NCBI GenBank assembly: GCA_902825945.1
Contig: CADECY010000036.1
Span: 1-64,000 of the forward strand
Direction of reading: 5' to 3'
DNA from: an uncultured Acidobacteriota bacterium
GTDB taxonomy: Bacteria; Acidobacteriota; Terriglobia; Bryobacterales; Bryobacteraceae
Length of the DNA stretch: 64,000 nucleotides
In this document: in pieces, positions 49,953 through 56,675 of the stretch
How positions within the stretch are numbered: position 1 is the stretch's first letter
Layout: each line of letters starts with the position of its first letter
Position numbers and translations under genes: made by a program
Notes under the pieces: generated by a model
Database searches by the model: none
Seen by the model: only the letters and a program-made list of their open reading frames with translations
Told to the model about the DNA's origin: nothing

Positions 49953-51170
49953 ATGCGAAAACGCCTTGCCATCTCCGCCCTCTTATTGGCCAGTGGTGGA
50001 GCGACTTGGATGGTCTCGCGCTGGGCCCGCGAGGCGAGGCCCGCCTCGCGGCCGCCAGTGTCGAGAGTCTCCGGTGAACGTTCGGTGCGAGCCGTGCGTC
50101 CCGTGCATCCGTTTTCGGTGGTGCCCGGCGGGGTGTTTGGTGGCGAGGAAGTCCGGGATTGGATGCGGCTTGACCCGGTCGTGGCAAGCCACTACGAGGG
50201 CATAGCAGTTGGCGATCTTCGGTCTGTGCGGGTCGCCGTGGAGCGTACGGTTCACGTGTCCTACCGCCGTGGCGACATGGTGTTCTGGACTCCCTACAAG
50301 GTCACGCTGAAGGCCGGTGAGACGGTACTGACCGATGGTGTCAACGAAGTGCGCGCGCGGTGTGGCAACCGGATTTCCGATACGGTGCGGGGCCCGGCCG
50401 AGGCACTCGGAGTCGCGCCGAAAGAGTCAGTCCTCGACGAGACGCTTCCGGGCAATCTTGCGCGCGGCGAGTTTCAGCCCGGCCACGCGCCCGAATGGCT
50501 GGTTGCGGCGGTGAAGGATCCGTCACAGCAGGCCTCGCGCGATGCCGTGGCGATAGCTGGCGGAGGCGCCACCGCTGGTTCGGACTCGTTTGGCGGTGGT
50601 GCGATGGTTGTCGCTGGCGGAGCGGGAGGACTCCTGTCGCTACCTCGCGGTGGAGGCGGCGGCGGTGAATCCACGAGCGGAATTCCACCCGCCGGGTCAG
50701 GCGGAACCAACGAGCCCGGCTCCGGCTCGCCCGGCTCCAGCTCCACGGGCCCCACTGGAGCGACGGGCGCGACCGGAGGCACTGGTTCCGGCGGATCGAC
50801 CGGGCTCCAACTGGCTGGGTCCATCCCGCAACCTGGACTCACGCCGAATCCATGGCTACCGCCCCTCCGCGATTCGATCACCGAAGGGGGTGGAGGCGGC
50901 GCGGGCTCCACGGGCTCTACGGGTCCGGGTGGAAGCGGTTCGGGCGGCAGCGGTTCGAGTGGTGGCACCGCATCGAGGGGTGGTGGAACCGGTTTCACCG
51001 CAGGCAGCGGCTTTACCGGATTCACCGGCGGCACTGGCGGTACCGGCGGGAGCGGATTCACCGGACCCACTTCCTCCATACAGGCCGTGCCCGAGCCCGC
51101 GACGTTCCTTCTCGTCGGCTCGCTACTAGTCTCGATTGGGCTCGTCCGCAAGATGCTGCGAGGAAAATAG
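49953..51170 (+). CDS. Gly/Ser/Thr-rich PEP-CTERM protein
   Basis: 405 residues. A signal peptide (MRKRLAISALLLASGG) is followed by about 170 residues of ordinary sequence (VRVAVERTVHVSYRRGDMVFW), then a long glycine-rich region from about 205 to 365 with collagen-like G-x-T repeats (TGATGATGGTG, GSTGSTGPGG, FTGFTGGTGGTGG). The end is VPEPATFLLVGSLLVSIG followed by LVRKMLRGK, a textbook PEP-CTERM sorting signal. Exosortase should cleave and anchor it, so it may be part of an exopolysaccharide matrix. The exosortase is not in the window. Confidence 0.85.
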   Translation: MRKRLAISALLLASGGATWMVSRWAREARPASRPPVSRVSGERSVRAVRPVHPFSVVPGGVFGGEEVRDWMRLDPVVASHYEGIAVGDLRSVRVAVERTVHVSYRRGDMVFWTPYKVTLKAGETVLTDGVNEVRARCGNRISDTVRGPAEALGVAPKESVLDETLPGNLARGEFQPGHAPEWLVAAVKDPSQQASRDAVAIAGGGATAGSDSFGGGAMVVAGGAGGLLSLPRGGGGGGESTSGIPPAGSGGTNEPGSGSPGSSSTGPTGATGATGGTGSGGSTGLQLAGSIPQPGLTPNPWLPPLRDSITEGGGGGAGSTGSTGPGGSGSGGSGSSGGTASRGGGTGFTAGSGFTGFTGGTGGTGGSGFTGPTSSIQAVPEPATFLLVGSLLVSIGLVRKMLRGK

Positions 51171-52199: not shown

Positions 52200-54467
52200 A
52201 TGAAGGCCTCCAGCGCACTTTGGAAGCAGTCCCTCGCCGGGCAAATCGCCGAACCCCTGGCCACGGAACTCGACATCTACGAGAACGAGATTCTCCTCAA
52301 AAAACAAGGCAAAATCGACGACAAGGTGTTCGCGGAAACTCGCCTGCGCCGGGGCTCTTACGGCCAGCGGTATGACAACGGCCAGCGCCACGATGGCGTC
52401 GCCGCTCGCAAACTCGAGTTCCCGCAGGCGCTCACCAAAGGTCCCGGCACCGAGTGGGATGCGCCGGGAATGCAGCGCATCAAGATCCCCTACGGCGGAA
52501 TGAATGCGCGCCAGCTCGAAGTGATGGCCGAACTTGCCGAAGAGTACTCGGACGGCATCGCGCACGTCACCACGCGGCAAGACTTCCAACTCCACTTCAT
52601 CCATATCGAAGACGCGCCGTCACTGATGCGGCGGTTGGGCGCGGTGGGCATCACCACTCGCGAAGCGTGCGGAAACTCGGTGCGCAACGTAACGGCCTGC
52701 CACCTCTCCGGCATCTGCCGCACCCAGACGTTCGATGTAACTCCCTACGCCCACGCGCTGACTTACTTCCTTCTCGGACATCCGGACTGCCAGGACTTCG
52801 GCCGCAAATTCAAGATCGCCTTCTCTGGCTGTGCCGGCGAATCCTGCGGCTTGGCCAAACTACACGACATCGGCGCCGTCGCCGCCACGCGCGAAGTGGA
52901 TGGCAAGATCCAGCGTGGATTCCAGTTCTACGTCGCCGGCGGACTCGGCACCGTTCCCCAGCAGGCCCGCCTGTTCGCAGAGTTCCTGCCGGAAGAGGAA
53001 CTGCTCCCGGTCTCGCAATCGATCTGCCGCGTCTTTGCCCGGTTGGGTGAGAAGAAGAACCGCAACACAGCCCGCCTCAAATTCCTGGTGTCCAAACTCG
53101 GACTCGAAGAATTCAAGCGGCTGGTGTACGAAGACCGCAAGACTCTGACTCCCGATCCGCGTTGGACCGCGTATCTCTCCGAACTCGACAAGCTCGACGA
53201 GCAGCCGCTGAAGCCGCCTTCGCTACTGCAAATCGAGCCGACCCGCCCGAAGGATTTCGACGCCTGGTACAAGTCGAACGTTTACCAACAGCGCCAAGGC
53301 GGCTACTCGACGGTGACCGTCGCGCTGCCCCTCGGCGACATCACCTCCGATCAGCTCCGTGTGCTCGCCGATATCACGCGCCAGTATTGCAAGGACACCG
53401 TTCGCACGACGGTCGACCAGAACATGGTGCTTCGATGGATCAGTTCCGGAGACCTGCCAGCGGTCTACCGCGACCTCGCTGCCGCCGGACTCGCGGAGGC
53501 GGGCGCGGGAACGATTGTCGATGTCGTCTCCTGCCCGGGAACCGACACCTGCAAACTCGGAATCTCTTCCTCTCGCGGCCTCAGCGGCGAACTGCGCGAA
53601 CGCCTCGCCGAGAAGCAATTCGTGATGGACGAAGCCATCCGCAGGCTGCACATCAAGGTGAGCGGCTGCTTCAATTCCTGCGGTCAGCACCATGTGGCCG
53701 ACCTCGGCTTCTACGGTGTGAGCCGGAACAAAGGCGGCTACACCGTGCCGCATTTCCAGGTGGTGCTCGGCGGACAATTCGAGAACAATGCCGGATCCTA
53801 CGGACTCGCGATCGGCGCGGTGCCCTCCAAGCGAATTCCGGAAACGGTGGACCGCATCACTGGCCGCTACCTCGCCGAGCGTCAGGGCGAGGAGAGTTTC
53901 CAGGCCTGGATCAAGCGGATCGGCAAAGCCGCGAGCAAAGCAATGATCGAGGATCTGACCGCGGTCCCCGCCCATGACGTTGACCCGAGTTACTATGTCG
54001 ATTGGGCCGATGCGCGCGAGTACACGATCGGCGATATCGGCATCGGCGAGTGCGCGGGAGAGGTCGTCAACCCGATCGATTTCCAACTCGCCGCCTGTGA
54101 GCGCCAGGCGTTCGAGGCGCAGTTGGCGTTGGAATCGGGTGACGTTGCGCGGGCCCAGGGGCTGGCATACGATTCGATGCTACACGGCGCGGTCGCGCTG
54201 CTGAAGCAACGTCTGCCGGTGTTTACCGAGGAGCCCGATCAGGTAGTGAATCTGTTCCGCGAGCAACTGGTCGACACGCAGTTGTTCCATGACCCGTTCG
54301 CGGGCGCCAAGTTTGCCCACTATTTCATCAAGGCGCATGAGAAGCGCGCCGGCGCTGTGTCGGCCGATCGCGCGCATCAGTTGATCGAGGAAGCGCAGTT
54401 GTTCATCGAAGCCAGCCACGCCTGCTATGCGCGGATGCGGCAACAACCCGCTGTGGCGAAGGCATGA
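52200..54467 (+). CDS. Siroheme sulfite/nitrite reductase fused to a HEPN-like C-terminal domain
   Basis: The 755 residues contain the two ferredoxin-like halves of a nitrite/sulfite reductase. Motifs: HVTTRQDFQLHFIHI, RNVTACHLSGICR, FSGCAGESCG, the [4Fe-4S]-siroheme Cys sets CPGTDTCKLGISSSRG (about residue 445) and KVSGCFNSCGQHH (about 489). An additional about 125 residues (630 to 755) are all-helical: AACERQAFEAQLALESGDVARAQGLAYDSMLHGAVALL to AQLFIEASHACYARM, which looks like a HEPN-type domain. No signal peptide, so cytosolic assimilatory activity is likely, with sulfite or nitrite as substrate not separable by eye. A TATAGT hexamer is 17 bases before the ATG. Confidence 0.9.
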   Translation: MKASSALWKQSLAGQIAEPLATELDIYENEILLKKQGKIDDKVFAETRLRRGSYGQRYDNGQRHDGVAARKLEFPQALTKGPGTEWDAPGMQRIKIPYGGMNARQLEVMAELAEEYSDGIAHVTTRQDFQLHFIHIEDAPSLMRRLGAVGITTREACGNSVRNVTACHLSGICRTQTFDVTPYAHALTYFLLGHPDCQDFGRKFKIAFSGCAGESCGLAKLHDIGAVAATREVDGKIQRGFQFYVAGGLGTVPQQARLFAEFLPEEELLPVSQSICRVFARLGEKKNRNTARLKFLVSKLGLEEFKRLVYEDRKTLTPDPRWTAYLSELDKLDEQPLKPPSLLQIEPTRPKDFDAWYKSNVYQQRQGGYSTVTVALPLGDITSDQLRVLADITRQYCKDTVRTTVDQNMVLRWISSGDLPAVYRDLAAAGLAEAGAGTIVDVVSCPGTDTCKLGISSSRGLSGELRERLAEKQFVMDEAIRRLHIKVSGCFNSCGQHHVADLGFYGVSRNKGGYTVPHFQVVLGGQFENNAGSYGLAIGAVPSKRIPETVDRITGRYLAERQGEESFQAWIKRIGKAASKAMIEDLTAVPAHDVDPSYYVDWADAREYTIGDIGIGECAGEVVNPIDFQLAACERQAFEAQLALESGDVARAQGLAYDSMLHGAVALLKQRLPVFTEEPDQVVNLFREQLVDTQLFHDPFAGAKFAHYFIKAHEKRAGAVSADRAHQLIEEAQLFIEASHACYARMRQQPAVAKA

Positions 54468-54475
54468 GGGAGGCC

Positions 54476-54991
54476 ATGCAGCATTTTCGAGTGAAGGTAT
54501 TCGCGAAGACGGCCGAGGGCGTCGATCTCCACGCCGCCATTCCGGTCTTCCACCGCTGGATTCAGAAGAGCGCGCTGCCCGAGTTGTTGATCGACGTGGC
54601 GGACTACCAACACGTGCCGAACGGGCCCGGCGTCATGCTGGTGGGCCACGATTCGCACTACGGGCTCGACCAGACGAAGGGCCGCCTGGGTCTGCTCTAT
54701 ACGCGCCGAACCGTGCTCGCCGGATCGGTTGCCGATCGAATCCGCGCCTCGATCGACGCGGTTCAAACCGCCTGCCGCATGCTCGAAAAAGAACCCGAGT
54801 ACGAGGGCAAGCTGGCGTTCGACTACGGCACGCTGGAGATCAGCGTCAACGACCGCGGGCTCGCTCCGAATACTCCGGAATCGTATGCCGCGCTCGCGGC
54901 GGACGTGTCCGCGGTGCTCGGTCCGGAGTGGACGCTCACGCACGTGGGTGAGCCGCGCGAACTGCTCACTGTTTCCGCGATTCACGGCTGA
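54476..54991 (+). CDS. Unknown protein coupled to the sulfite/nitrite reductase
   Basis: About 171 residues from the ATG at 54476 (GAGGGAGG just upstream); ATG 54464, which overlaps the reductase stop, is the alternative. The sequence is MQHFRVKVFAKTAEG, VFHRWIQKSALPELLIDVADYQHVPNGPGVMLVGHDSHYGLD, and no known domain or catalytic set was recognised. The immediate coupling suggests it helps the reductase, for example in cofactor or electron delivery, but that is inference. It ends 26 bases inside the convergent cytochrome gene. Confidence 0.6.
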   Translation: MQHFRVKVFAKTAEGVDLHAAIPVFHRWIQKSALPELLIDVADYQHVPNGPGVMLVGHDSHYGLDQTKGRLGLLYTRRTVLAGSVADRIRASIDAVQTACRMLEKEPEYEGKLAFDYGTLEISVNDRGLAPNTPESYAALAADVSAVLGPEWTLTHVGEPRELLTVSAIHG

Positions 54992-56675
54992 GTTCGTTTC
55001 GCAGCCACGCCGCGTCTTTGTCCGTGTGGCAAAGCAGGCAGGCGTTGGGGCTGCCGGCGGGTCCGAAGCGTGCTGCCGCTTCGGCGTCCGGGATGTCGGA
55101 GATCGTGTGTGTGCGGGCCTTGAAGCCGACAGTCTCGGTGATGCGCGGCATGTGGCACGACACACATCGCGATGCTTCGATATCGGGTTTGTGGCGCGTG
55201 TGCGCTCGTTTCGACTGGCCGCGATGGCAGCTCACGCACATCGCATCCGGATCGTCCTGGTGCTTCAGCGCCTTCAGGTTCGCCGAAGAATCCGGGGGAT
55301 GCGGATCGTGACAGGTGCCGCAGTGTGCGCCACCCTTTCGATAACACGCTGATCGCTCGAACGCCTCCACGATGAAGGTGGTCTCGCGAAAGCGGCCGTC
55401 GAGATAGAACGCGCGCCGTGAGAATTCGAGAAACGGCCGGCTGTGCTGGGGCAAAGTGAAGTCCGGCGAGGAGCCCGAAAAGTTGAGCTGACCTTGGGGC
55501 CCCTTGCGGAGAATCGCGGACTGCCGGTGACACTGGGCGCAGATCGCCACATAAGGTGCGGCTTCGAGCTTGCGGAAATCGACGGGTGGTTCGTGCGCGG
55601 GCTTGTTCGCCGCGCGCTCCCGGATATGCCCGGCCGAAGGGCCATGACACATCTCGCAGTTCACGCCCGGCTCGGCGAACTTCGCCAGCGGACCCGTTTG
55701 CGCCAACTGGCTCGTATGACAGGGCGCGCAGTTGCGTTGGTAGAGTGGCGCGTCGCTGAACGCGGTGAACCCCGCACTCTGGCGGCGAATCGAGCCGGGC
55801 CGGTCGATCTCGTGCCAATAGTTGAGCCACCGCCCGGTCACGCGATTGTACTGGATGGGGAAAACGTGGATCCGCTCGCCCACGCGCGTCGCGTAGGCTT
55901 GTTGCCACTTCGAGCCGATCGTGTAATCGACTGGCAGTCGTTTGCCGGCTGTCTCGAAGTAGTGGCGTCCTCTCGCGAGCAGGGGCCGCAGCCCTTCGAT
56001 CGTCGCGCCGGAGAAATCTCCGAATACCGCGCCTGGCGAATACGGCGCGAACATCTTCGCCATTCCCGTCCCGCTGTGGTCGCGATGTTGTTTGGCATGG
56101 CAGCCTTGGCAGGCGGCCGATCCGGCGTATTGCGCGGGTTGGCTCGGGCCGGAGTTGCGGCGTTCGGGCTCCGATCCGCCTGCTGCTCGGGCCGTCAGGC
56201 GCAGCTTCGGCTCGAGTGTATCCCACGCCGCGCGCGAGTAGGCAGCCGGTGGTACGAATCGATCGAGATACTCGAGCGCGAGCGACGCGGTGGCCGCGCT
56301 CGGCTGTCCGAGCGCCTGCTGCGCCCGGGCGAGTGAGGCGAGCAAGAGCGGATTCTCGGGCAGGATCCGCAGCGATCGTTCCGCGTGTTCGAAGGCGCAA
56401 TCGGGCCGCCGCAAATCGATGCACGACTGCGCGGCGACGTCGTAAGCCACCGAGAGAAAAGCCGAGGCTCCATGCGCGGCGATGAATCGCTCGGCTCGGC
56501 GCAGCCGATCATCGGGCGACTTCGCCTGGAAGACTTGCTCGAGTGCGGAACGTTCGACGGGATCGGGGATTTGATCGAGTAACCGGTAGGTCTTGCGATC
56601 CGTCTCGAATACGACAGTGTCGATGTCTTGCGCCCGGAGCCAGGCGGCGCAGGCCAGCAACACGAATCGCCTCAC
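54966..56675 (-). CDS. Octahaem cytochrome c with N-terminal TPR-like region
   Basis: The 569-residue protein has a signal peptide (MRRFVLLACAAWLRAQ), about 130 residues resembling TPRs (CAFEHAERSLRILPENPLLLASLARAQQALG) and eight CxxCH motifs at about 188 (CQGCH), 315 (CAPCH), 338 (CEMCH), 378 (CAQCH), 451 (CGTCH), 479 (CVSCH), 504 (CVSCH) and 545 (CLLCH). The spacing is loosely like cytochrome c554/multihaem electron carriers. It should be periplasmic and may carry electrons or act on a small N or S substrate. The start codon lies 34 bases from the divergent sigma factor gene. Confidence 0.87.
   Translation of the reverse strand: MRRFVLLACAAWLRAQDIDTVVFETDRKTYRLLDQIPDPVERSALEQVFQAKSPDDRLRRAERFIAAHGASAFLSVAYDVAAQSCIDLRRPDCAFEHAERSLRILPENPLLLASLARAQQALGQPSAATASLALEYLDRFVPPAAYSRAAWDTLEPKLRLTARAAGGSEPERRNSGPSQPAQYAGSAACQGCHAKQHRDHSGTGMAKMFAPYSPGAVFGDFSGATIEGLRPLLARGRHYFETAGKRLPVDYTIGSKWQQAYATRVGERIHVFPIQYNRVTGRWLNYWHEIDRPGSIRRQSAGFTAFSDAPLYQRNCAPCHTSQLAQTGPLAKFAEPGVNCEMCHGPSAGHIRERAANKPAHEPPVDFRKLEAAPYVAICAQCHRQSAILRKGPQGQLNFSGSSPDFTLPQHSRPFLEFSRRAFYLDGRFRETTFIVEAFERSACYRKGGAHCGTCHDPHPPDSSANLKALKHQDDPDAMCVSCHRGQSKRAHTRHKPDIEASRCVSCHMPRITETVGFKARTHTISDIPDAEAAARFGPAGSPNACLLCHTDKDAAWLRNELSRESRKQ

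Follow-up and report, generated by a model that had tools for sequence, protein, structure and literature searches.

The window analysed here is a 64,000-nt stretch of the genome of an uncultured Acidobacteriota bacterium (contig CADECY010000036.1 of assembly GCA_902825945.1). Two overlapping genes were found on its plus strand, one encoding a protein of 755 aa (52200..54467) and the other a protein of 175 aa (54464..54991); the second gene starts within the end of the first, the two sharing 4 bp (ATGA). The first-pass annotation, made from the sequence of the window, had read them as a sulfite/nitrite reductase with a HEPN-like helical tail and a translationally coupled partner, and both open reading frames proved to be real. 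All features of the two proteins given below are on the plus strand. Convergent with the pair, the minus strand encodes at 54966-56675 a protein of the multihaem cytochrome c type, which has CXXCH motifs and matches TPR models weakly. A protein rich in Gly and Ser, whose repeats (GxTGxTG) are collagen-like and whose C-terminus resembles PEP-CTERM, is encoded at 49953-51170.

Pfam search of the 755-aa protein returned NIR_SIR (1.1e-52) and NIR_SIR_ferr (1.5e-39), each in two stretches. The whole-protein score exceeded the curated cutoff for the NIR_SIR family, and the duplicated repeat of siroheme reductases is present. The predicted structure, whose confidence is low near the two cofactor sites, superposed on Escherichia coli SiRHP (2gep, Z 22.9, residues 93-580) and on Mycobacterium tuberculosis NirA (1zj8, Z 22.7, residues 42-580). 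The C-terminal half carries the complete CX5CXnCX3C ligand set for a siroheme-[4Fe-4S] centre, formed by C445-x5-C451 (53532..53552) and C490-x3-C494 (53667..53681), both of canonical spacing and invariant in 28 of 28 reductases. In NCBIfam, the models for CysI, sir (ferredoxin sulfite reductase), NirA and NirB were matched far under every curated cutoff, which places the reductase outside these named groups. The dsrA and dsrB models were also matched far under cutoff, the protein is a single chain, and no ferredoxin family was reported by Pfam.

All four positively charged substrate-binding residues (R/R/K/K) of the canonical assimilatory sulfite reductases are present in the N-terminal half, their correspondence to the MjFsr residues (PMC10229431) being by motif and not by structure. 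R126, K203 and K205 are invariant in 28/28 aligned reductases, the two lysines being the sulfite-type active-site lysines of an RKFK motif (residues 202-205, 52803..52814); R162 is invariant in 9/9 reductases and conserved in at least 95% of the set of 28. K205 aligned with N226 of tobacco nitrite reductase, the residue altered in the N226K mutant structure. The asparagine to lysine exchange at this position of the tobacco enzyme favours sulfite.

The gene neighbourhoods of relatives point in the same direction. One locus (L035) holds in a single run cysN, cysD, cysH, a methylase gene of the SUMT (uroporphyrinogen methyltransferase) type and a gene of the siroheme dehydrogenase type; a DUF2061 small membrane protein (L035:8939-9193) is encoded there between the partner and the siroheme genes. 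Genes of cysH type or for siroheme synthase are present at L040, L048 and L051, and a cysK-type gene is present at the L030 locus. In the genome of the window the reductase gene is not within a cys operon; CysND is encoded on contig C37 and another PAPS_reduct gene, probably CysH, on C62. A search of this genome revealed no further NIR_SIR protein and no second full sulfite reductase. On C197 it revealed a NirB-type fragment that includes a BFD-like domain, next to an MFS gene that looks like a putative nitrate transporter. We weighed whether the 755-aa protein could instead be an assimilatory nitrite reductase, as its best curated matches are the NirA-family and ferredoxin-nitrite reductase models (all far under their cutoffs). 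This is very unlikely given the lysine in place of the tobacco asparagine, the sulfate-assimilation genes that adjoin the pair in relatives, and the NirB-type gene elsewhere in the same genome. Assimilatory sulfite reduction is the best reading because of the active-site residues, the neighbours in relatives (cysND, cysH, siroheme synthesis and cysK) and the separate NirB; judged from sequence, the protein is probably an assimilatory sulfite reductase that converts sulfite to sulfide for cysteine synthesis.

The helical extension noticed earlier beyond the siroheme domain appeared in the reductase model as five helices (residues 625-645, 649-671, 679-691, 704-714 and 722-754), and its start was refined to about residue 622, directly after a conserved GECAGE motif (54045..54062). 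It is not a part of the normal reductase fold, since tail-less sister reductases stop at about residue 620. Residues 622-745 of the tail (622-755, 54063..54464) superposed on the HEPN protein AF0298 (2hsb) with Z 15.8 and rmsd 2.4 over 117 residues. The next structural matches were ST0689, TT1696, TM0613 and human sacsin (Z 12.7-13.5), and HEPN-MNT toxin structures were also among the matches. Profile search with the tail detected 2hsb at E 0.0026, in weak agreement with the structural result. The Pfam HEPN family was matched in 4/19 tailed members (best 3.2e-5) and PaREP1 in 5/19 (1.2e-4); the tail of the window reductase itself gave no Pfam family above cutoff. The tails of another group of reductases (L103-L107) had weak or no support when compared with the HEPN tail and are not claimed as HEPN. 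We concluded that the tail is a HEPN domain by its modelled fold.

RX4-6H is the motif of HEPN RNases, and in AF0298-type HEPN proteins its histidine is typically missing as well (PMC3710099). A conserved RX4-6H was not found in 56 tails; chance-like matches occurred in 18 of the 56 at scattered positions. The tail is therefore probably no RNase, and of the initial HEPN reading the fold stood while an RNA-cleaving role did not. Like AF0298 and other HEPN proteins the tail has the five-helix fold, with weak but consistent profile similarity; unlike them, it is fused to a reductase and does not conserve the RNase motif.

The 175-aa partner was modelled as an alpha/beta protein with a pLDDT of 89. 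It had been left unrecognised in the first reading and it stayed so: searches with partner sequences and profiles against Pfam, NCBIfam and PDB gave nothing significant. DUF934, a protein adjoining some proteobacterial sulfite reductases, was not matched in 21 partner sequences at E values up to 1 in Pfam. In fold searches AdoMetDC, TBP and phosphoglucomutase-like structures were retrieved with a best Z of 7.6, which is in the range of common arrangements. The near-invariant residues are grouped in I43-D44-V45-x-D47-Y48-x-H50 and nearby; the partner alignment contains no conserved cysteine, and no cofactor motif was detected. In four loci a DUF4202 gene adjoins the partner or the pair (L028:1108-1707, L030:6923-7510, L045:8402-9001 and L047:5442-5990); our literature search found no paper mentioning DUF4202.

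The fusion and the partner were mapped across genomes, as the first-pass annotation had proposed, and their co-occurrence is nearly perfect. In the phylum of the window the partner was found in 24 of 297 genomes and the HEPN-tailed fusion in the same 24, with either alone in none. In a second phylum, sampled as the genomes around a Myxococcales genome (L026), the partner was present in 35/235 genomes and the tail in 39/235, including all 35, with adjacent coordinates; three of the four tail-only genomes have divergent-tail reductases and the fourth has a separate 147-aa HEPN-like protein. A scan of genome contigs revealed ten partner loci, with record titles naming Nitrospira, Myxococcales, Kofleriaceae, Phycisphaerales, Miltoncostaea, Miltoncostaeaceae, Deltaproteobacteria, Latescibacterota and Gemmatimonadaceae. 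The partner lies directly 3' of a tailed reductase wherever the upstream flank is visible, at a spacing of -4 to 32 bp in 28 of 29 pairs and of 204 bp in one. Since the two are conserved, and lie side by side, in many phyla, the pairing is not due to chance. The HEPN-like tail, the translational coupling and the co-occurrence together mark tail and partner as a conserved module that belongs to a siroheme enzyme. The HEPN fold and the HEPN-MNT toxins among the structural matches could also be taken to mean that the two form a toxin-antitoxin-like or RNA-acting module fused to an enzyme. We regard this as extremely improbable: the RNase motif is not conserved in the tails, the partner matches no nucleotidyltransferase family, and it adjoins the reductase at every locus where the upstream flank can be seen.

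The N-terminal half of the reductase carries a second cysteine quartet, made up of C167-x5-C173 (52698..52718) and C211-x4-C216 (52830..52847). In a half-versus-half profile alignment (probability 99.3%) C167, C173, C211 and C216 fell exactly opposite C445, C451, C490 and C494. The quartet is invariant in all 52 partner-linked reductases examined (28/28, and 24/24 from the second phylum); NirA and tobacco nitrite reductase are without it in the alignments. Assimilatory sulfite reductases are reported to have arisen by duplication and fusion, keeping one siroheme-[4Fe-4S] site while the motif was lost in one half (PMC10229431). The window reductase departs from the canonical form, whose N-half has no cluster ligands, in that the quartet has been retained. 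A CX5C...CX3C arrangement in the N-half was also found in two other lineages (L108-L110 and L116-L117), several neighbours of which do not have it. Because the second pair is spaced CX4C instead of CX3C, and part or all of the set is missing in related lineages, the quartet might be a relic or another metal site that holds no iron-sulfur cluster. We consider this rather unlikely in view of its invariance among the partner-linked enzymes, its exact alignment with the catalytic ligands and the recurrence of the motif in the two other lineages.

Read from the half-versus-half alignment, the residues of the C-half expected opposite the second site are D406, V440, R482 and H484. They differ from the R/R/K/K set, which makes catalysis at this site improbable and the presence of siroheme there uncertain; judged from the sequence, a cluster alone or a DsrA-like structural siroheme seems more plausible than a second catalytic site. 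In a quick tree of 61 rows the quartet was present in all 38 partner-linked reductases, although support was low (27) for the branch setting all partner-linked rows apart. In a smaller, more careful tree 14 partner-linked rows grouped together at 100/100. Both trees are unrooted and do not tell an ancestral second quartet from a repeatedly gained one. Three reductases inside the HEPN-tailed clade (L171-L173, support 99) have no partner and none of the four cysteines. The link between partner and quartet is suggestive only, as these three are one lineage.

Several features may relate to the handling of reduced sulfur. In L030, L155, L157, L162 and L167 the partner carries a rhodanese domain fused to its C-terminus; all five loci lie in one six-row clade with L153, so these fusions may be a single event. 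The sulfite reductase encoded at L116:3603-5951 has both quartets and, at its C-terminus, a TusA domain; the neighbouring genes there resemble cysK, sat and cysH. In the HEPN-tailed reductases C618 of the GECAGE motif is invariant in 28/28. GEC[AS] is the extreme C-terminus of the tail-less sisters, which end at GEC[AS]x; in these sisters the motif is possibly a C-terminal cysteine arm, and this arm is thus no feature of the tail. Judging by these motifs and fusions, a sulfur hand-off is possible. Zero-valent sulfur has been reported as a product of assimilatory sulfite reductases in a 2026 paper (PMC13188885). Partner and tail might hand over the reduced sulfur in the form of a protein persulfide, via the GECA cysteine, a rhodanese or a TusA domain, and not as free sulfide. 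That reading would account for the rhodanese and TusA fusions, the invariant cysteine and the reported product, but the partner itself has no conserved cysteine and the rhodanese fusions are confined to one clade; we think it unlikely.

An assembly role for the partner was given a similarly low rating. A factor that binds the HEPN tail, aids the insertion of siroheme and clusters and then leaves, with no place in the working enzyme, would agree with the near-obligate pairing, with the siroheme-synthesis genes adjoining the pair in relatives, and with the missing partner inside the tailed clade where the second ligand set is missing. The rhodanese fusion fits sulfur handling better, however, and the partner has no similarity to a known chaperone family. 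The first-pass annotation had suggested a regulatory or assembly module and had passed over the second quartet, the sulfate-assimilation context and the fusions to rhodanese and TusA. These findings speak for a role in catalysis or sulfur handling no less than for one in regulation.

Taken together, we favour with moderate confidence the explanation that the pair is an assimilatory sulfite reductase complex with a HEPN docking tail, a dedicated small subunit and a second [4Fe-4S] centre. Its fold, active-site residues, HEPN tail and near-obligate co-occurrence, and the sulfate-assimilation context of relatives, were derived from sequences and models. In such a complex sulfite would be reduced to sulfide at the siroheme-[4Fe-4S] centre of the C-half, with the N-half supplying the positively charged residues. 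The HEPN tail would serve as a non-catalytic docking platform, and the partner would be a dedicated small subunit bound to the tail and/or the N-terminal half. The N-half quartet would hold a second, non-catalytic [4Fe-4S] cluster, with or without siroheme, comparable to the structural centre of DsrA but here in a single chain. The partner may act at or near this second centre, where it could dock an electron donor or help reduced sulfur onward to sulfurtransferases. A further proposal, which we put forward tentatively, is that these enzymes form a class of assimilatory sulfite reductase in which both ancestral metal centres persist in a single chain, one being the catalytic siroheme-[4Fe-4S] centre and the other a second [4Fe-4S] or siroheme centre. 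An obligate new subunit, docked through the HEPN domain, would then either serve the second centre or hand sulfur onward.

The reductase shares its two-half fold, CX5CXnCX3C ligands and R/R/K/K residues with E. coli CysI/SiRHP, M. tuberculosis NirA and the plant nitrite and sulfite reductases, to which it adds the N-half quartet, the GECA motif, the HEPN tail and the dedicated partner. Its core fold is also related to that of DsrAB, in which one of the two facing cofactor centres is structural, and of the F420-dependent Fsr. In contrast to these, the window reductase has both halves in one chain with aSir-type CX5C motifs, and lacks both a ferredoxin insert and an F420H2-oxidase domain. The tail-less sisters ending in GECA (e.g., L108-L110, which also have the second quartet) have the same core, but neither a HEPN tail nor a partner was found for them. 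Our literature search found no paper describing a HEPN-sulfite reductase fusion. We found no published description of this pair, which we regard as a conserved assimilatory sulfite reductase variant. It places a widespread, unnamed protein family in the context of sulfate assimilation and gives an example of a HEPN domain at work in a setting other than RNA or toxins. Enzymes with both ligand sets could be living intermediates, accessible to spectroscopy and structure determination.
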